Positions 2,343-46,460 of a stretch of DNA of 64,000 bases are shown here, piece after piece (the stretch's first letter is position 1; each line of letters starts with the position of its first letter). The DNA is from Salinibacterium sp. SWN248. GTDB taxonomy: Bacteria > Actinomycetota > Actinomycetes > Actinomycetales > Microbacteriaceae. Where the stretch lies: contig NZ_JADYWW010000001.1 in NCBI RefSeq assembly GCF_015864575.1, positions 186,001 to 250,000 of the forward strand, read 5' to 3'. A program made the position numbers and the translations under genes. The notes under the pieces are model-generated. The model searched no databases. It was not told where the DNA came from and saw only the letters and a program-made list of their open reading frames with translations.

Positions 2343-3578
2343 GTGCTCCTGTGTCTTAGCTCGAATCATCGCAACGCGAGCTTAGACGTACTCGAAAGTC
2401 TGTCTGAGGTCGCCCCGGCGGCCACCGTCGACCTCGTATCGCACAATGATTTCGTTGCCGGAGCCGTTCTGGTTGCCACCTGCAACCGCTTCGAGGCCTA
2501 CCTCGATGTCGAAGAACCACTCACCGCCGGTTCGGCCATCACCGTGTGTTCTCTGCTCGAATCGCTGAGCGAACGCACTGGACTCAGCCTCGATACTTTG
2601 CACGCCTCCATCGCCGTTCATGAGGGGGCGGATGCCGCAGCTCACCTCTTTGCGGTGACCTCGGGTCTTGAGTCCGTCGTGATCGGTGAAGCCGAGATCT
2701 CCGGCCAGGTCAGTCGCGCTCTCGATCAGGCGCGCAAGGATGGCACCACTACCCGCGACCTCGAGCGCCTCTTTCAGCGCGCCACTCACACGAGCCGCGG
2801 CATCAAGAACAACACGGCCATCGGCGGGGCAGGCAAGTCCCTCGTGCGCCTCGCTCTCGAACTGGCCTCGAGCCGCGTCGCCGACTGGTCGACCGCGAGC
2901 GTTCTCGTCGTGGGCACCGGCCGCTACGCGGTCACGACCGTCAACGCCCTGCGCGACAAAGGCGCACTCGACCTTCGCGTCTTCTCGCCCTCGGGCCGCG
3001 ACGCCGCCTTCGCCCTCAAGCACGGGCTTACCCAGAGCGAGGACTTCGACGTCGATGTCGTAGTCACCTGCACCGTGAGCGCTCTGCTCGGCGCCGAACG
3101 CTTCTCAGCCGCCAGCAAGTGCCTCGTGCTCGACCTCGGGCTCCCCCGCAACGTTGACCCCGCCGTTGGCCAACTCAACGGTGTTGACCTGCTCGACCTC
3201 GAAACCATCAGCCTGCACGCCCCGCTCGAAGAACTGAACGCGCATGCGGATGCTCGCAACCTGGTTCGCACGGCCGCCCACGAATTCGCTGCCGAAAGCC
3301 AGGCGGAGCCAGCCATCGTTGCTCTTCGCACGCACCACTTCGCCCTCCTTGAGGCGGAAATAGCTCGCGCCACTGCCCGCGGAGCCGGCGACGAAACCAT
3401 TTCGGCGCTGCGTCACCTCGGCGGCGTTCTACTGCACGGCCCTTCGGTGCGCGCCCGCGAGTTCGCGGCTGATGGCCGCGTCGCAGAGTTTGATGCTGCC
3501 CTCTCGGCGCTCTACAACATCCCGGTGGAGCGCACGGCACGAGCAAGCGACGCCCAGGCGCGACCGCACACGGCGTAG
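2343..3578 (+). CDS. hemA: Glutamyl-tRNA reductase
   Basis: Catalyses NADPH-dependent reduction of glutamyl-tRNA(Glu) to glutamate-1-semialdehyde, the first committed step of the C5 heme pathway. The 411-residue product is slightly short for the family. The catalytic cysteine lies in VLVATCNRFEAYL (near residue 48). The catalytic-domain segment VIGEAEISGQV corresponds to the family GExQIlgQ motif, and the NADP fold begins at VLVVGTGRYAV (about residue 190). The GEAEIS and GTGRYA versions differ from the commonest GEtQIL and GaGeMa forms, but the domain order is standard. GTG is chosen because it opens the conserved N-terminal strand and sits just after a -10 element. It is divergent from hemE. 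Confidence 0.94.
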   Translation: MLLCLSSNHRNASLDVLESLSEVAPAATVDLVSHNDFVAGAVLVATCNRFEAYLDVEEPLTAGSAITVCSLLESLSERTGLSLDTLHASIAVHEGADAAAHLFAVTSGLESVVIGEAEISGQVSRALDQARKDGTTTRDLERLFQRATHTSRGIKNNTAIGGAGKSLVRLALELASSRVADWSTASVLVVGTGRYAVTTVNALRDKGALDLRVFSPSGRDAAFALKHGLTQSEDFDVDVVVTCTVSALLGAERFSAASKCLVLDLGLPRNVDPAVGQLNGVDLLDLETISLHAPLEELNAHADARNLVRTAAHEFAAESQAEPAIVALRTHHFALLEAEIARATARGAGDETISALRHLGGVLLHGPSVRAREFAADGRVAEFDAALSALYNIPVERTARASDAQARPHTA

Positions 3579-4523: not shown

Positions 4524-5099
4524 ATGTCTGAGCATGTCGTTTTGTTTGCTGGCCCCATGGGCTCCGGCAAGACGACCGCTATTCGCAGTCTGAGTGAAAT
4601 CGATGTGGTGTCGACTGAGGCTACCAACACGGATCGCGAGACAGCGGATAAAGAGACCACTACGGTGGCGCTTGACTACGGCGAGATCACCATCGACGAT
4701 GTCACGAAGGTTCGCCTCTACGGAGTTCCGGGGCAAAAGCGTTTCGATTTCATGTGGTCTATTTTGGCGGGCCGCGCACGTGGTCTACTGCTGCTGATCA
4801 ACAATGATGCGCCCGACTCTGTCGCGTTGCTTCTCGAATACCTCAACAACTTCCGCGACCTTCACTCCCGCGGCGCAGTTGTCATCGGTGTCACCAAGTC
4901 TGATGTGTCTGATGCACCCAGCGTTGCCGACTATTCCGCAGCACTCACCGCTGCATCCCCTGACCAGCTCATTCCCGTATTCACCGTTGACCCGCGCAAT
5001 GCTGAAGAGATGCGCACCCTGCTGCTGACGCTCGTCGCCAGCGTCGAAATGCGTGAACTCCTTGCACCTGCTCCGGCACCAATCTCCGAGAAAATCTGA
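4524..5099 (+). CDS. Conservon-type (CvnD-like) small GTPase
   Basis: A 191-residue P-loop GTPase of the MglA/CvnD type, which pairs with roadblock/LC7 proteins in bacteria. The G1 loop is GPMGSGKTT (about residues 10-18). The switch II region is YGVPGQKRFDFMW, where the usual DxxG aspartate is absent; the same VPGQ/TPGQ form is seen in actinobacterial conservon GTPases. G4 is TKSD within VIGVTKSDVS. The acidic threonine-rich switch I (ETADKETTTVALDYGEI) matches the family. Its TGA overlaps the ATG of the next gene by one base, so it is coupled to a roadblock gene. No histidine kinase or DUF742 gene flanks it, unlike complete conservons. Confidence 0.87.
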   Translation: MSEHVVLFAGPMGSGKTTAIRSLSEIDVVSTEATNTDRETADKETTTVALDYGEITIDDVTKVRLYGVPGQKRFDFMWSILAGRARGLLLLINNDAPDSVALLLEYLNNFRDLHSRGAVVIGVTKSDVSDAPSVADYSAALTAASPDQLIPVFTVDPRNAEEMRTLLLTLVASVEMRELLAPAPAPISEKI

Positions 5100-5518
5100 T
5101 GAACCTCACACCTGCGCCCGTCGCCACCATGGCGTCGCACCTGAACCCCGTCCACATCGATGCCGGCAACCGCACCCTCGCCGAAATGCAAGATCTTGCG
5201 AGCTCGCTCACCTTTGCCTCGCTGCTCACCGATGATGGCTTCGAGATCGTTCACCTCAACGGAACCCACGCGGATGGCGGACGCTTCGCCAGCATGTCCA
5301 GCTCAGTGCAAGCACTCAGCGATGCTGTCGCCCACGAACTGAAAATCGGCACCAACGAGTACGTGATCATTGCATCCGAACTCGGCCACGTCATCCAACT
5401 GCGCGTTCAAGGGCACCCCATCGTGCTCGCCGCGCTGTTCGACACTCATGAAACTTTGGGCAAAGGCCTCTCGATCGCTCGCATCGCCGCGCGACGCATG
5501 GCCGAGCTCATTGCGTAA
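5099..5518 (+). CDS. Roadblock/LC7-domain protein, first copy
   Basis: A 139-residue protein with the roadblock/LC7 fold of MglB/CvnB, usually a homodimer that binds or activates the partner GTPase. About 30 extra residues precede the domain. The domain runs from AEMQDLASSLTFASLLTDDGFEIVHL through the long helix SMSSSVQALSDAVAHELKIG to the strands EYVIIASELGHVIQLRV and the closing helix. It is translationally coupled to the GTPase (TGATG overlap). The assignment rests on the secondary-structure pattern and the gene partnership. No catalytic residues are expected. It is followed by a second, shorter roadblock-like gene. Confidence 0.8.
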   Translation: MNLTPAPVATMASHLNPVHIDAGNRTLAEMQDLASSLTFASLLTDDGFEIVHLNGTHADGGRFASMSSSVQALSDAVAHELKIGTNEYVIIASELGHVIQLRVQGHPIVLAALFDTHETLGKGLSIARIAARRMAELIA

Positions 5519-5568
5519 CTACGCACCACTCGAAGTAACACCAACCCGACACCTAAACGGAGAACACA

Positions 5569-5928
5569 ATGTCAAACATCACTGAAACCCTCGCCGCTCT
5601 TCTCGAGACTGACGGCGCTATGGCTGCCGCAGTAGTCGACAGCGGATCGGGCATGCTGCTCGGAAGCGCCGGAACCGGCATCGACCTCGACGCGGCAGCA
5701 GCCGGCAACACCGAGGTAGTGCGCGCCAAGCTCAAGACCATGAAGGCTCTCGGCCTCAAGGACTCCATCGACGACATCCTCATCACGCTCTCGAGCCAGT
5801 ACCACATCATCCGCCCGTTGGCATCGAACCCCGAGGTCTTCATCTACTTCGTACTCGACAAGGCGAAGTCGAACCTCGCGCTTGCACGTATCAACGTCAA
5901 GACCGCCGACTCCAGCCTCGGCCTCTAA
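5569..5928 (+). CDS. Roadblock/LC7-domain protein, second copy
   Basis: A 119-residue single-domain protein. The start MSNITETLAALLETDGAMAAAVVDSGSGMLLGSAG is a typical LC7 first helix and strand. The middle helix AGNTEVVRAKLKTMKALGLKD and the strand pair DDILITLSSQYHIIRPL / VFIYFVLDKAKSNLALARI follow. The start ATG has a good upstream site (ACGGAGAAC). It differs strongly from the first roadblock protein, so the two could form a heterodimer or act separately on the GTPase; this is inference. A strong hairpin follows its stop codon, which may raise its level relative to the next gene. Confidence 0.78.
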   Translation: MSNITETLAALLETDGAMAAAVVDSGSGMLLGSAGTGIDLDAAAAGNTEVVRAKLKTMKALGLKDSIDDILITLSSQYHIIRPLASNPEVFIYFVLDKAKSNLALARINVKTADSSLGL

Positions 5929-5939
5929 GAATCCACTCG

Positions 5940-5968
5940 CTGTGGCGGTCATTCGATGACCGCCACAG
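5940..5968 (+). terminator. Intercistronic hairpin between roadblock gene and DUF2510 gene
   Basis: Perfect 13-bp stem (5940-5952 with 5956-5968) and a TCG loop, 12 bases after the roadblock stop and about 30 bases before the DUF2510 start. Only a short CTTT follows, so it is more likely a partial terminator or a 3' mRNA stabiliser than a full terminator. Confidence 0.6.
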
Positions 5969-5996
5969 CAGGCTTTACCGCTCAGAAAGAAACATC

Positions 5997-7094
5997 ATGA
6001 CCGACGGCACCAGTATCCCCGCTGGGTGGTACCGCGACCCGCTGGGCGCTCTGCAGCTTCGCTGGTGGGATTCCGCGTCCTGGACCGAGCACGTTTCGGC
6101 CCTCGACAGCTCGCCAACACCACTAAACGACACGATCGCTGAAGAACAGTTCAACGTCAGCGCTCCTGCCACCGCCGCGGACCCCGACGTTCTCGTCATT
6201 CACCCGGCCCCGCGCAAGAGCGCCCGGGATCATGCGAACGCGAGTGCCTCCATGGCCTCGGCAATGCCCGCAATGGGCGGCACGACAACTACTGCGACGG
6301 CCACCGCCCCTGTCCCGGTCACAGCCTCATCGACGGTTGCTGCCGCTACTGCTGCACCTGCCGACGAGCCGACGCGCGCCACCGCACACATTCTCAACGT
6401 CACCCCGATCGACGACGACAACACTCAAGCGGATGCCGCCTCCGTTGCGCCCGCAGCCGGCAAGCGCCGCGCGGGCCCCGCTAGCAGTGTTGATATCGCT
6501 CTGCCCGCGGCCACCTGGAACGCGCTCAACCGCGCCATCACCGAAGCCGTTCATTCCGCTGCGGAACCGCTCGTGGAACTCCGCTTCGCCGACGCCCCCA
6601 CCCTGGTCATTGACCCCCGCGGCAGCGTCTACTGGTGGGCCCAACCGCTCGAAAAACTCTCCGCAACGAACACCGATGGTGACGTTGAAACCGTCGCTCG
6701 CCCGCTCGCGATCCATCACAGTGAAGCTGGCCGCGACTGGGAACCCCTGATTTGGCTCATCGGCACTCAGGCTCAGCCCGAGTCGTTCGATCCGCTGAGC
6801 CTTTCGGGTGCTCGCTTCAAGCTCCGTCGCTGGCCAAACCTCACCACGCTCACGCACACGACCGATCAGATGAGCATGACCGCAATGCTCGGCGCCGCCT
6901 ACCTCACGATCACCGAACTCGCGTCACTCGCGCATGTTCCTGAAGATGAAGCGCGTCGTCTGGTCTCGACTTTTGAACTGATGGGTCTGTTGACGCACAC
7001 CGTCGATACGACGGCAGATGTGATTCGGATGCCTGAGTCTGAAGCCTCGAAAGAGGGAATCTTCTCTCGACTGAAAGCACGCTTCAGTCGCTAG
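5997..7094 (+). CDS. DUF2510 protein with C-terminal winged-helix-like region
   Basis: A 365-residue protein of unknown function. Residues about 5-37 are a DUF2510 domain (AGWYRDPLGALQLRWWDSASWTEHV), a short Trp-rich domain common at the ends of actinobacterial envelope and signalling proteins. A linker of about 110 residues rich in Ala, Thr and Pro follows. The region from about residue 160 is folded; its end (ITELASLAHVPEDEARRLVSTFELMGLLTH) looks like a winged helix and resembles in layout the C-terminal helix-turn-helix of conservon DUF742 proteins. No membrane segment is seen. It is the last gene of the GTPase/roadblock cluster and may be its effector; that role is inference. Confidence 0.75.
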   Translation: MTDGTSIPAGWYRDPLGALQLRWWDSASWTEHVSALDSSPTPLNDTIAEEQFNVSAPATAADPDVLVIHPAPRKSARDHANASASMASAMPAMGGTTTTATATAPVPVTASSTVAAATAAPADEPTRATAHILNVTPIDDDNTQADAASVAPAAGKRRAGPASSVDIALPAATWNALNRAITEAVHSAAEPLVELRFADAPTLVIDPRGSVYWWAQPLEKLSATNTDGDVETVARPLAIHHSEAGRDWEPLIWLIGTQAQPESFDPLSLSGARFKLRRWPNLTTLTHTTDQMSMTAMLGAAYLTITELASLAHVPEDEARRLVSTFELMGLLTHTVDTTADVIRMPESEASKEGIFSRLKARFSR

Positions 7095-7108: not shown

Positions 7109-8053
7109 TTAGTGCACATACTCCAGCAGGTCGAGGCCGAAGGTGCGCATCGCTTCAATCACGCGCAAGCGTGAACGAAGGTTGGCGTCATCAAATTGAA
7201 TGGATGCCGCATAGGCGACCGCGCGCTTGTTGCCTCTGAGGGCGCCCGCTTCCGCTCGCACCCCCTGGTCGATTCCGGTCTTGTTGACCAGCAGTGTGTT
7301 GTGGTCTGCTCCCCGGTGAGCCAGGGGATCAAGCCCGAACGCACTCGCCACGAGCGACAGATCGGTGTTGAGCGAGAGCCAACCGAGCACGCGCTGGCTG
7401 GCGATCGAGTTCACAATTTCACCCCGGGCGAGGGCGCCGAATAGCCAACTGAGTTCTATGGCGGAGCCGACGGAAAGCTGCGGTGCATCGTCGGGACCGC
7501 GGGTGTCACGCACGAGGTCGAGAAGTGCTGTCTTGGTGAGGCCGAGGGATTCGGTGCGGGCTCGCACAGCATCCAACCCAATGAGACGCAGCAGGATGTT
7601 GGTCGCGAGGTTGTCGCTGGTCGCACCGACGAGGGCCGCCAAGTCCGCTACCGGAAGCGATGGTGCCTGCAAGTGCTGCCACAGCCCTGCAGCACCGACG
7701 GAGGCTCCGGGAACTTTGTCGAGGATGCCGTAGGGGGCAAAGTCGCGACTATCGAATCGTGCCGCTACTTCGATGAGCAACAGGATCTTGCCGATGCTGG
7801 CCGTGGGAAGCTCTACCCGATCGTCGATGCTGAGGATCGTCTTGCCCGTGTTGATGTCGACCGCACTGGCGGATACGCGCACGCTGCGATCGGCAAGTTT
7901 CAGTTTTCCAAGCGCGGCAAAGGTACTGGTGAAGTTGGGTACTTCTCCAGTTCCGGCATGCTTCGCAACTCGGGGGGTGCGAATGCGATTCCGGCGTTCT
8001 CGGGTTTGCTCGATCTCTACCAAATAGTGACGCGATCTTTCGGGTCCAGCCAC
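7109..8053 (-). CDS. Serine hydrolase, class A beta-lactamase-like fold
   Basis: A 314-residue penicillin-recognising serine hydrolase. The three active-site boxes are in order: SxxK in PTASIGKILLL, SDN in VGATSDNLATNILLRL, and KTG in LLVNKTGIDQGVRAEAG. No signal peptide or lipobox is visible, so it may be cytoplasmic, unlike secreted beta-lactamases; antibiotic resistance should not be assumed. The proposed ATG overlaps the end of the upstream metallopeptidase gene by 37 bases. A later start (for example TTG at residue 11) is possible, because the N-terminal 35 residues are basic and not part of the fold. It converges on the DUF2510 gene with a 14-base gap. Confidence 0.8.
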   Translation of the reverse strand: MAGPERSRHYLVEIEQTRERRNRIRTPRVAKHAGTGEVPNFTSTFAALGKLKLADRSVRVSASAVDINTGKTILSIDDRVELPTASIGKILLLIEVAARFDSRDFAPYGILDKVPGASVGAAGLWQHLQAPSLPVADLAALVGATSDNLATNILLRLIGLDAVRARTESLGLTKTALLDLVRDTRGPDDAPQLSVGSAIELSWLFGALARGEIVNSIASQRVLGWLSLNTDLSLVASAFGLDPLAHRGADHNTLLVNKTGIDQGVRAEAGALRGNKRAVAYAASIQFDDANLRSRLRVIEAMRTFGLDLLEYVH

Positions 8054-43030: not shown

Positions 43031-44497
43031 ATGACATCCACCACTGAGAGCGTTCGACTCCGCTTCGACAAGATCACGATGCGCTACGGCTCAACTCTCG
43101 CGGTTGATGGCATCGATCTCTCCATCAAAGCGGGTGAAATCGTCGGCCTGCTCGGCCACAACGGCGCAGGCAAATCCACCCTGCTGAATGTGGCAACAGG
43201 GGCTGCCACAGCGACATCAGGCGCTCTCTGGCTCGACGGCGAAAAAATCCCTGCCGGATCTACACCAGGCGAGATTGCTCACAGCGGGATTACCGTCATC
43301 CACCAGGAGCCAGCACTTGCTTCTAACCTCTCGATCATCGACAACCTGTTCCTTGCTCGATCGAATGTGCCGGGCCGCGCAGAACGGTTGCGCCGCGGCC
43401 GCGAAGCACTTGACTCAGTCGGCGCGGAAGGACTCGCGCTTGACGTCCCCGTTGGGGCGCTGACTCTAGGCGAACGCCAACTCGTCGACCTGGCCAGAGG
43501 CTACCTCGCCGGTGAGATGAAAGTTCTCATGCTCGACGAACCGACGGCAGCCCTCGGCGCCGCCGAAACGGAAGCGCTGCACGACCTCATTCGCCGCCTC
43601 GCTAGTCAGGGAACCGCGGTCATTTACGTTTCGCACCGTCTTCCCGACATCCTCGAAGTCTGCGAACGCATTGTCGTTTTGCGTGGCGGCGAACTCGTCA
43701 TGGATCATCCCGCCAGCGGAATGAGCCTCGCTGCACTTTCCGCAGCTCTAGCCCCCGAAGTCGACTTCGATTCCGAATGGCATCCCGAGATCGGTGAAGA
43801 ACGTCTCGTGGTCAATGACGACGATGGGCCGTTAGTTTTCCGTGACGGCGAAATCGTGGGGCTCTTCGGCATGGCCGCCGGGGAACAGTTCGACCTCCTT
43901 GCCACACTCTTCGGCCTCGGCAATCCTGTCGACGCGACGCTCTCCGGGCGACGGTATCGCGCCCCTTCGCCGCAACATGCGATCACAAGTGGCGTGCACC
44001 TTGTCCCTGCCGACCGTGAGGTCGACGGGCTAGTCGTCGGCATGAGTGCCATCGACAACACTTTCCTTCCTTGGCGCGGCCGCCTCGGGCGCGCAGCAAT
44101 GACGAAGCAGTACGCCACCATCCGGGACACCCTCAACGTCGTCGGCCCCGATGGCGACGCGCCCATTGCGAGCTTCAGTGGCGGAAACCGTCAGAAGCAC
44201 CTGCTCGCCCGGTGGATGTTCCCCGTTGCCCCCAAGGTGCTCTTGCTCGCCCAACCAACGCAGGGGGTCGATATTGGCGCAAAACACGACATCAAACTCG
44301 CCCTCCGGGCACTCGCCGCAACGGGAGTGAGCGTCATCATCGCGTCAGCCGAGACCGACGAGATCGCTTCACTGTGCGACCGCAGCTACGTGCTCGCCCA
44401 CGGACGCCACCAAGAACTACACCGCACTGGAGGCTACGAAGAGCGCCTCCTCAACACCCTTCTTGATCTCACTTCAGCCGAAAGAAGCCCCGCATGA
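43031..44497 (+). CDS. Sugar-type ABC ATPase with two nucleotide-binding domains (RbsA-like)
   Basis: A 488-residue double ATPase. The first domain has Walker A GHNGAGKST, signature LTLGERQLVDLA and Walker B VLMLDEPTAAL. In the second domain the Walker A position is GLFGMAAGEQFDLL, without the GKS/T lysine, while the signature FSGGNRQKHLLARW and VLLLAQPTQGVDIGAKHD are retained. A degenerate second Walker A, and Q in place of D or E, are seen in RbsA-type proteins, so one site probably hydrolyses ATP. The ATG at 43031 opens the fold. It overlaps the permease start by four bases. Confidence 0.92.
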   Translation: MTSTTESVRLRFDKITMRYGSTLAVDGIDLSIKAGEIVGLLGHNGAGKSTLLNVATGAATATSGALWLDGEKIPAGSTPGEIAHSGITVIHQEPALASNLSIIDNLFLARSNVPGRAERLRRGREALDSVGAEGLALDVPVGALTLGERQLVDLARGYLAGEMKVLMLDEPTAALGAAETEALHDLIRRLASQGTAVIYVSHRLPDILEVCERIVVLRGGELVMDHPASGMSLAALSAALAPEVDFDSEWHPEIGEERLVVNDDDGPLVFRDGEIVGLFGMAAGEQFDLLATLFGLGNPVDATLSGRRYRAPSPQHAITSGVHLVPADREVDGLVVGMSAIDNTFLPWRGRLGRAAMTKQYATIRDTLNVVGPDGDAPIASFSGGNRQKHLLARWMFPVAPKVLLLAQPTQGVDIGAKHDIKLALRALAATGVSVIIASAETDEIASLCDRSYVLAHGRHQELHRTGGYEERLLNTLLDLTSAERSPA

Positions 44498-45501
44498 ACC
44501 GCATCAAAATCGCTCTCGCCCAGAACGGGACATTCATCGCTCTCCTCGTGATGATCATCTTCTTTGCGTCGATGAATCCGCGATTCCTCAGCCTTGCAAA
44601 TGGCCAGACCATTCTTCTGCAGATCGCTGAGCTGGGAATCATTGCTCTGCCACTCGCCTTCCTCGTCATGTCAGGAACCCTCGACCTGTCCGTAGGTTCC
44701 GTCGCTAGCTTGAGCGCTGTCGTATCGGCCATGGTGATGCTCGAAACCAACTCTGCGCTGTGGGGCTTTGCGGCCGCAATTGTGGTCGGAGTGATCACCG
44801 GGGCGCTGAACGGACTTCTCGTTGCGTACCTCAAGCTCAATCCCCTCGTCATCACACTCGGGTTCCTCAGTGTGTGGGGCGGCTTAGCGTTGTTCCTCAC
44901 GCAGGGTTCGACCCTGGTGGGATTCCCCGATTCCTTCAAAGCGCTCGGAACGATGACAATCGGGCCCGTGCCTCTTCAAATCATCATCCTTGCCGTCGGC
45001 GTTTTCTTGGCGTGGTACGTCCTGAATAGAAACTCGCTGGGCCGCAATGTGCTCGCAATCGGTGGTAACCCGCGGGCCGCTCACCTCATGGGCATCCGGG
45101 TTCCCCGCACGATCTTCTCGCTCTTCGTCGCTACCGGAGTTGCTGCCGCCATTTCAGGAACTCTGCTCGCCGCCAAACTACAGTCCGCCCCTCCTACGGT
45201 AGGCAACGGTATGGAGATTCAGGCCCTCACGGTAGTGCTGCTTGGTGGTGTCGCCCTTGAGGGAGGCATGGGCCGCATTACGGGCGTCGTGTCCGGTCTG
45301 CTCTTTGTGGGAGTGCTCCGCAACGGCCTCGTCATCATGGGCGTCTCGCAGTTCCTGCAGACCATCCTTATCGGTGCCACTCTGGTGGTCGCTGTGCTGC
45401 TCGACGGCTCAGTCCAGCGCCTGCTCAAGAAATCGTGGACGACGCTCGACGTCAAGAAGTCACCGAATTCCGATACGGCGAAGACCGAGGTCACAGCCTG
45501 A
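44494..45501 (+). CDS. Sugar-type ABC permease (RbsC-like)
   Basis: A 335-residue permease with about ten hydrophobic segments. Typical family segments include SGTLDLSVGSVASLSAVVSAMVM, GVITGALNGLLVAYLKLNPLVITLGFLSVWGG and GNGMEIQALTVVLLGGVALEGGMGRITGVV. No second permease gene is present, so it should act as a homodimer. It overlaps the ATPase stop as ATGA. The C-terminal tail (WTTLDVKKSPNSDTAKTEVTA) is cytoplasmic. Confidence 0.92.
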   Translation: MNRIKIALAQNGTFIALLVMIIFFASMNPRFLSLANGQTILLQIAELGIIALPLAFLVMSGTLDLSVGSVASLSAVVSAMVMLETNSALWGFAAAIVVGVITGALNGLLVAYLKLNPLVITLGFLSVWGGLALFLTQGSTLVGFPDSFKALGTMTIGPVPLQIIILAVGVFLAWYVLNRNSLGRNVLAIGGNPRAAHLMGIRVPRTIFSLFVATGVAAAISGTLLAAKLQSAPPTVGNGMEIQALTVVLLGGVALEGGMGRITGVVSGLLFVGVLRNGLVIMGVSQFLQTILIGATLVVAVLLDGSVQRLLKKSWTTLDVKKSPNSDTAKTEVTA

Positions 45502-45569
45502 GCGCTTCAACCGCGCGATAGCACCTGCCGTTGCAGCAGGCACAGAGTGGAAGGTGGGAGAATTAGAGG

Positions 45570-46421
45570 ATGAAGATCCTCTCGATTCAGTCAGCAGTCG
45601 CGTTCGGCCATGTCGGCAATTCAGCCGCGGTGTTCCCGCTGCAACGCATCGGCGTTGAGGTGTTGCCCGTTTATACGGTCAACTTCTCTAACCACACCGG
45701 CTACGGCGCGTGGCGCGGACCGATGATCGACCCGAGCGATGTGTCTGAAGTTATCGCCGGCATCGAGGATCGCGGCGTCTTCCCCCAGATCGATGTCGTG
45801 CTCTCCGGCTACCAGGGCGGCGAGGGCATCGGCGATGTCATCATCGACACGGTTGCACGCGTCAAGGCAGCGAACCCCCGCGCGATTTACTCGTGCGACC
45901 CCGTGATGGGCAATGCGAAATCCGGATGCTTCGTGGCCCCGGCCATCCCGATCCTGCTGCGTGAGCGCGTGGTCCCGGTCGCTGACATCATCACCCCCAA
46001 CCAGTTCGAGCTGGGCTTCCTCACCGAAACCGACCCCGACACGATCGAGTCGACGCTCGCATCCGCCGACCTCGCCCGCGCCATGGGCCCGAGCACGGTT
46101 CTCGTAACGAGCGTTGAGCGCCCCGACCGTGAGACCGACACCATCGAAATGATGGTCGTGACGGATGCCGGAGCCTGGATCGTGCAGACCCCGCAGCTTC
46201 CGATGAAGGCCAACGGTTCCGGTGACGTCACGGCCGCTCTCTTCACCGCCCACTTCACCCGCACCGGCGATGCCGCGGATGCACTAGCCCGCACGGCATC
46301 CAGCGTCTTCGACCTGCTCACCAAGACCCTCGAGTCGGGCGAACGCGAACTGCAGCTCGTCGAGTCGCAAGAGTTCTACGCGAACCCGCAAATGCAGTTC
46401 ACTTCGCGTCAGGTTCGCTAG
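45570..46421 (+). CDS. pdxY: Pyridoxal kinase
   Basis: A 283-residue ribokinase-superfamily enzyme that phosphorylates pyridoxal in vitamin B6 salvage. It starts MKILSIQSAVAFGHVGNSAAVFPLQRIGVEVLPVYTVNFSNHTGYG, the signature of PdxY. The catalytic region is KANGSGDVTAALFTAHF, with the base aspartate. The substrate-side segment YSCDPVMGNAKSGCFV is also typical. The ATG at 45570 has GGGAG upstream. It stands alone, 68 bases after the permease gene, and ends at a strong terminator. Confidence 0.94.
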   Translation: MKILSIQSAVAFGHVGNSAAVFPLQRIGVEVLPVYTVNFSNHTGYGAWRGPMIDPSDVSEVIAGIEDRGVFPQIDVVLSGYQGGEGIGDVIIDTVARVKAANPRAIYSCDPVMGNAKSGCFVAPAIPILLRERVVPVADIITPNQFELGFLTETDPDTIESTLASADLARAMGPSTVLVTSVERPDRETDTIEMMVVTDAGAWIVQTPQLPMKANGSGDVTAALFTAHFTRTGDAADALARTASSVFDLLTKTLESGERELQLVESQEFYANPQMQFTSRQVR

Positions 46422-46460
46422 TCGGCAGAAAACCGGGGCAAACCCCTACAGACCAATAAG

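Follow-up and report, generated by a model that had tools for sequence, protein, structure and literature searches.

In the genome of Salinibacterium sp. SWN248, a stretch of 64,000 nucleotides (positions 186,001 to 250,000 of contig NZ_JADYWW010000001.1, assembly GCF_015864575.1; hereafter the window) carries four closely spaced genes on the + strand at 4524-7094, here called A, B, C and D, which are likely to encode a four-part G-protein switch around a small GTPase of the kind described as Group 3 of the MglA family, probably acquired from Proteobacteria. A and B share one base (TGATG), whereas B and C are 50 bases apart and C and D 68. The features of the cluster are as follows.

4524-5099, + strand: A, predicted Group 3-type MglA-family small GTPase, 191 residues (sequence, tree, motifs)
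4551-4574, + strand: G1/P-loop GPMGSGKT of A (sequence, alignment)
4722-4736, + strand: G3/switch II GVPGQ of A (sequence)
5099-5518, + strand: B, roadblock/MglB-type protein and candidate GTPase-activating protein (GAP), 139 residues, with a 1-base overlap with A (Pfam, profile)
5234-5239, + strand: Asp46-Gly47 pair of B, unchanged across 17 aligned relatives (alignment)
5569-5928, + strand: C, second roadblock-fold protein, 119 residues (model, Foldseek, weak sequence match)
5997-7094, + strand: D, DUF2510, low-complexity linker and putative Group 3-partner region, 365 residues (Pfam, profile comparison)
6021-6116, + strand: DUF2510 domain of D, residues 9-40 (Pfam)
6474-7091, + strand: conserved C-terminal region of D, residues 160-365 (alignment, model, profile comparison)
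6861-7001, + strand: winged helix of D, model helices 130-141, 146-153 and 157-169 and strand 173-176 (model)
7062-7085, + strand: amphipathic helix at the end of D, residues 197-204 of the model, predicted with low confidence (model, hydrophobic moment)

The initial annotation of this DNA had listed a GTPase with a VPGQ motif, two unlike roadblock proteins and a DUF2510 protein ending in a winged-helix-like region, with the first two genes overlapping and no kinase, and all of this was borne out. Its interpretation, namely an undescribed variant of the actinobacterial conservon, fared differently, as set out below.

The cluster is kept as a unit within the Microbacteriaceae. Our sample comprised 398 genomes of the family, with several loci from one genus, so that counts are not independent. 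The profile of A matched in 38 genomes at an E-value of 1e-20, and after leaving out G079 and G325, whose GTPase matches (2 of 46) were weak and at the level of the conservon GTPase CvnD, 36 genomes with 44 copies remained; the profiles of the D C-terminal region and of C, both at E 1e-6, matched in 41 and 34 genomes, respectively. As D lies within 3 kb of all 44 copies of A, the association of the two is not due to chance, and by genome the counts for A with D, A only, D only and neither are 36, 0, 5 and 357 (p 4e-46). B was present within 1.5 kb of A in all 28 clusters (27 loci) that were read in detail, D likewise in 28 and C in 19. These data show that A, B and D stay together and that A, B, C and D diverge in step, the evolutionary distances being correlated over six gene pairs (Mantel r 0.39-0.74, a value reached in no more than 1 of 999 permutations), and they support the reading of the genes as one conserved, kinase-free signalling unit. 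They also dispose of the concern that the last gene might be an unrelated DUF2510 protein not conserved with the others: D is a true member of the unit, although DUF2510 is not its core, being missing from D in several genera. The order is D-A-B-C in 8 of 17 larger Microbacteriaceae stretches, with C-C-D-A-B, A-B-C-D, A-B-D and D-A-B as variants, and no conserved fifth gene stood out in the gene maps, which were read by eye from a crude gene finder.

A second copy, of the order A-B-D and without C, lies on another contig of the same genome (L098:6282-8438, that is G000:C2 about 44281-46437). Its A and B are 60% and 56% identical to those of the window, and its D also has DUF2510. This second A groups with second copies from other genomes of the genus (100/100) and its D aligns closest to the D of other second copies, which suggests that the copies evolve as units. 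Across 83 genomes from the order but outside the family, no match to A was better than 5.3e-36, compared with 1e-90 and 3e-86 for the two copies of the window genome; within its order, and in this sample, this type of A is therefore confined to the Microbacteriaceae.

A matches the Pfam family ATP_bind_1 (E 2.3e-12) and had been described as CvnD-like, which holds if the term is taken broadly, for the MglA family as a whole, but not for CvnD proper, given the tree, the G4 motif and the length of switch I. An unrooted tree was made of 74 GTPase rows, thinned from the 125 left once five repeated loci (L001, L002, L006, L017, L019) and identical or short sequences had been removed. In it, A of the Microbacteriaceae forms one clade (100/97) that first joins the sequences of Polaromonas L033 and of L039 (97/96). 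Together with Proteobacteria (51 rows, 19 of them proteobacterial) it is split from CvnD and Chloroflexi (23 rows) at 100/99, and the CvnD-type rows form a clade of their own (100/98), which neighbours Chloroflexi and is distinct from A. Mean identity of A is 41% to the proteobacterial rows and 32% to CvnD. The spacing from P-loop to switch II, measured in 38 of the 40 Microbacteriaceae rows, is 51-52 residues there and in all 42 proteobacterial rows, as opposed to 60-61 in 19 of 19 CvnD-type rows, the switch I region of A being 8 residues shorter. The G4 phenylalanine (NxFD), present in 19 of 19 CvnD-type rows, is absent from 18 A-type rows of one alignment, and G5 reads DxR in all 40 rows from the Microbacteriaceae and all 42 from Proteobacteria; in the window A itself, G3 is GVPGQ and G5 is DPR.

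Group 3 was described by Wuichet & Sogaard-Andersen (2014, PMC4316618) as a set, free of kinases, that comprises a winged-helix protein, MglA and one or two MglB, with GTPGQ at G3 and DAR at G5. It was described as "almost exclusively" beta- and gamma-proteobacterial, which left room for some actinobacterial members. On the tree, the motifs, the length of switch I and the partner profile described next, A is best assigned to the Group 3 type; conservons belong to Group 2. The grounds for the Group 3 label are taxonomy, neighbourhood, motifs and the partner gene rather than the sequence set of 2014. The cluster shares with Group 3 the GTPase clade, the DxR of G5, the order partner-GTPase-roadblock (as seen in the 8 Microbacteriaceae stretches that read D-A-B-C), one or two MglB, the lack of a kinase and a partner with a C-terminal winged-helix region. 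It differs in that the Microbacteriaceae partner has no receiver-like N-terminus, being either short or headed by DUF2510, that the Salinibacterium D is the last gene of the operon, and that no PAS gene stands beside the window copy, whose neighbours encode GNAT and beta-lactamase2 proteins. The cluster is real and kept as a unit, and it represents a rearranged offshoot of a type already known rather than a broken conservon. The system cannot be called undescribed, since its architecture is already found in PMC4316618, although its actinobacterial branch appears, from the sequence comparisons, to be new here.

D, too, links the cluster to Proteobacteria. Compared with a profile of the genes directly upstream of proteobacterial GTPases (39 sequences, the gene upstream at L047:4465 being left out as not of the partner type), its C-terminal region gave a probability of 98.9 and an E-value of 1.9e-17 over 188 columns, and with the five nearest relatives alone 95.9 and 6e-9 over 101 columns, these E-values being those of single comparisons. 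This comparison shows the region to be homologous to the gene directly upstream of proteobacterial Group 3-type GTPases. The Polaromonas loci L033, L041 and L045 carry a D-type gene, A, B and then C, in the order D-A-B-C apart from an extra small gene between B and C, and their C is 60-61% identical to that of the window. All four parts are also present in L046 and some of them in L043, which breaks off after A, and in L039, which starts only past the place of A, while L037 and L042 are of the wider proteobacterial type, in which C was not found. Given the closeness of C across phyla and the GTPase tree, the set has likely been transferred between phyla, with Proteobacteria as the putative source and Microbacteriaceae as the putative recipient. 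These three loci seem to have three roadblock-like genes (L033:6504-7861, L041:6512-7818, L045:1616-2851), namely B, C and a weak C-like gene with profile E-values from 3e-4 to 0.014 and, where it was scanned, no match in Pfam.

What lies in front of the partner differs between proteobacterial loci. In Polaromonas L033 and L041 the gene immediately before D encodes a PAS protein (L045 is cut at that point). The partner of L048 and L063 is preceded by a roadblock gene, a PAS gene and a phosphonate-binding-like gene, the last of these scanned in L048 only. It thus seems that the input heads are variable, whereas A, B and the D tail are constant. The PAS protein of L063 lies at 2798-3292, and the phosphonate-binding-like protein at L048:2712-3458, which has no obvious signal peptide by eye, is perhaps a cytosolic ligand sensor.

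Both B and C belong to the roadblock fold, by different routes. B falls under the Pfam cut-off for Robl_LC7 (E 0.006), but its counterpart in the second genome copy clears it with 25.1 bits, and a profile of the B family that includes clear roadblock relatives finds solved roadblock proteins, among them cvnB5 (3leq), at E 4.5e-14. C has no Pfam or NCBIfam match at E 1 and weakly matches a single solved roadblock protein (7yh1, E 0.008). Its AlphaFold2 model, with a mean predicted local distance difference test (pLDDT) of 89, has the MglB fold according to Foldseek (6hjm, E 5e-8, TM 0.77-0.81), and C therefore appears to represent a roadblock family that is absent from Pfam and NCBIfam and is new here. 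At the position contacting the GTPase, an Asp-Gly pair has been noted for MglB of Groups 2-5 (PMC4316618) and for MfpD (PMC13015309); B keeps this pair, and C, as read by eye, has Asp-Ser instead. C-family proteins also occur without a strong A in 10 of the 398 genomes (L247-L252), adjoining an ABC transporter ATPase in L251 and open reading frames of similar size in L250 and L252. Might the C-family roadblock protein have a role of its own outside the cluster?

D is modular. DUF2510 occupies residues 9-40 (Pfam, E 1.8e-9). A motif search recovered it in 13 of the 30 best D loci (L166-L195), several of which come from one genus, but overlooks a degenerate form in Microbacterium oleivorans. The part that D proteins share is the C-terminal 200 residues, and in L022, L024, L025, L026 and L029 the whole protein has only 218-258 residues, with no room for a receiver-like head. 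The head of D in the Microbacteriaceae is DUF2510 or nothing, which is new here; DUF2510 is mentioned in no paper of the literature collection that was searched. Like C, the C-terminal region has no match over the cut-off in Pfam or NCBIfam. It was modelled over residues 160-365 with a mean pLDDT of 80, the winged helix of three helices and a strand with high confidence and the terminal helix with low confidence (pLDDT about 50), and an ending like GLFxRLRxRLG is kept across the D family. D-family proteins without A were seen at L256:8641-9327, L257:8663-9343 and L246:8213-8971, that of L257 adjoining a cytidylyltransferase-like gene and RecG.

From these parts a mechanism can be proposed. A would cycle between GTP- and GDP-bound forms, and a dimer of B would act as its GAP, as reported for MglB and MfpD (PMC9481161, PMC13015309). 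Since B keeps the Asp-Gly pair and C has Asp-Ser, C might tune or scaffold B or D rather than serve as the main GAP. D would be the partner of the GTPase, using its winged helix and its terminal helix to act as a guanine nucleotide exchange factor (GEF) or as an effector. DUF2510 of the Salinibacterium D may take the input place held in Proteobacteria by the receiver-like N-terminus or, in Polaromonas, by the neighbouring PAS protein. D might regulate transcription, a role proposed in 2014 for Group 3, or its binding might be restricted to proteins.

Several observations weigh against the reading as a Group 3-type switch acquired from Proteobacteria. All biochemical roles of A to D are carried over by analogy from Groups 1 and 2, and our literature search turned up no functional work on any Group 3 system, the term "group 3 MglA" only in PMC4316618, and no paper on Salinibacterium with a roadblock protein. 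The receiver-like N-terminus described for Group 3 partners is not present in D of the Microbacteriaceae, and G3 has valine in 58% of the 40 Microbacteriaceae rows, in place of the published threonine. The tree is unrooted, its program warned of long branches meeting at the main split, and the direction of transfer is tentative. A Foldseek search with the model of D returned nothing at E 0.001 or below, the best value being 0.097. C lies within 3 kb of 26 of the 44 A copies but not of the other 18, and C lacks a strong A in 10 genomes and D lacks A in 5; and the Mantel correlations still contain shared descent.

The role of D can be framed in two further ways. It is quite conceivable, if somewhat short of an even bet, that D is the GEF for A and that A-GTP acts on an effector encoded elsewhere. 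MfpC, the CvnC protein of mycobacteria, is reported to be a GEF, as told in PMC13015309 and PMC13343842, and holds a place in the mycobacterial conservon similar to that of D here; moreover, D is the most constant partner of A and has a CvnC-like amphipathic ending. This likeness, however, is one of position and build, as no significant profile match links D to CvnC. Alternatively, D could be a DNA-binding transcription factor and the final output, with A-GTP switching its binding to DNA, as might be read from the modelled winged helix, a weak HTH_IclR match at residues 303-333 (E 0.1), several MarR-type DNA-binding regulators among the weak structure matches (E 1.4-3), and the proposal of transcriptional control for Group 3 on like grounds (PMC4316618). 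We consider this doubtful, as helix three of the winged fold looks largely hydrophobic by eye and keeps this character across the family, and the better-ranked weak structure matches, to SEA, GATOR1-KICSTOR and RNA polymerase III subunits (E 0.1-0.5), are parts of protein complexes.

The conservon comparison bears on the whole cluster. The conservon core consists of the kinase CvnA, the roadblock protein CvnB, CvnC and CvnD (PMC13343842). No HATPase match at E 1e-6 was found within 58 kb of the window copy (nearest C1:251700 and C1:116412), and for the second copy the nearest lies 227 kb downstream, with none in the 44 kb upstream to the start of the contig. With a home-made HATPase profile, 28 of 30 actinobacterial loci had no match in flanks of 6-9 kb a side unless the contig ended; the exceptions are L230, with a match on the opposite strand at 2.8 kb from C (E 6e-12), and L234, with a marginal one at 6.6 kb (5e-4). 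These are single cases, so the kinase-free state stands, and a CvnA-like kinase is not a consistent neighbour. None of the 44 proteobacterial loci was positive in the flanks examined, whereas 15 of 31 DUF742 loci were, in flanks of at most 1.5 kb. DUF742 itself was over the cut-off in 2 of the 398 genomes (G079 and G255) and had no such match in the window's own genome. In G079 a DUF742 gene adjoins a GTPase gene whose product falls with CvnD in the tree, and the locus (L196) also has a HATPase match; this set of roadblock, DUF742 and GTPase genes (L100:5467-7229 and L196, G079:C1 about 1148466-1150228) is separate from the A-D system and is a true conservon that contrasts with it. The initial annotation had suggested that D may take the position of CvnC and proposed a comparison with DUF742 and DUF4388 from residue 160 onwards. 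Profile comparison gave no significant match to DUF742 proteins (probability 7.8) and none to Chloroflexi DUF4388 proteins (1.3), so that by profile D is rejected as kin of either. Compared with the conservon (AGPS; CvnA-D, MfpB-E), the cluster has in common an MglA-family GTPase, a roadblock protein and another small protein that ends in an amphipathic stretch and, as judged by eye, contains a helix-turn-helix-like part. It lacks the CvnA kinase, DUF742 and NxFD and has its GTPase in another clade with a shorter switch I. The presence of a CvnB-like member, B, is not diagnostic, MglB coupling being common across MglA groups (PMC4316618). A degenerate conservon, that is a Group 2 system minus CvnA with D in the place of CvnC, would fit the shared phylum, an MglA-family GTPase beside a roadblock gene, the amphipathic endings of D and CvnC and a weak alignment of the CvnC helix-turn-helix-like part with the D winged helix over 48 columns, but is highly improbable given the separate CvnD clade, the missing G4 Phe and shortened switch I of A, the scarcity of DUF742 and the different look of the G079 conservon. 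Conservon ancestry is rejected on the tree, the motifs, switch I spacing, DUF742 scarcity and the partner profile, and the conservon-variant reading gives way to the Group 3 type.

Beyond Group 3, the Chloroflexi pairs of a GTPase and a DUF4388 protein (L074-L097) resemble the cluster in that a partner with an amphipathic ending and, by eye, a helix-turn-helix-like C-terminal part is encoded just upstream of an MglA-type GTPase, but that GTPase groups with CvnD rather than A and the partner profile does not match D. The MglA-MglB pair of Myxococcus and Thermus shares the GTPase family and, from the model of C against MglB, the roadblock fold. It differs in that the intrinsic arginine of Group 1 in switch I (PMC4316618) is replaced by threonine in A, and in that the cluster has two roadblock proteins and a winged-helix partner.

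By eye, D, its proteobacterial kin and the DUF742 and DUF4388 proteins all end in a helix-turn-helix-like part (modelled as a winged helix for D only), a linker and a short amphipathic helix. An amphipathic ending, taken as a hydrophobic moment of the last 16 residues that ranks no lower than the 90th percentile within the same protein, was found in 8 of 11 D proteins, 18 of 39 proteobacterial kin (the weakest set), 17 of 21 DUF742 proteins and 21 of 21 Chloroflexi DUF4388 proteins, many rows being close kin. Profile matches among these families were not significant except between D and its proteobacterial kin. The shared layout may favour a common mode. Here we speculate, with no great expectation of being right, that D and its kin, CvnC/DUF742 and Chloroflexi DUF4388 might form one functional class, namely a GEF or effector with winged helix, linker and amphipathic helix working with a roadblock-dimer GAP, and that the Microbacteriaceae core was transferred with its sensor head swapped for DUF2510. 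The pairing of a roadblock/longin-type GAP with winged helices also recalls eukaryotic Npr2/Npr3 of SEA/GATOR1, which combine a longin domain with winged helices (PMC3521125), and is mentioned as a lead only.

As to the surroundings, a GNAT acetyltransferase gene lies 259 bases before A, and a Beta-lactamase2-family gene (7109-8053, - strand; Pfam 4e-33) is convergent with D, 14 bases beyond it, and looks like an ordinary neighbour. An anti-phage role of the cluster was dropped, as none of the four proteins had a PADLOC match at E 0.01.

Taken together, actinobacterial clusters of a GTPase and roadblock proteins are not all conservons, although they are easily lumped together. Those described here are hard to see by present annotation, save for the GTPase and DUF2510, because C and the C-terminal region of D have no Pfam or NCBIfam match over the cut-off. 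Should the proposed swap of the sensor head hold true, DUF2510 would be an input module of a G-protein switch. The compact, duplicated copy in a small actinobacterial genome offers a clean place to knock out and reconstitute a Group 3 system.

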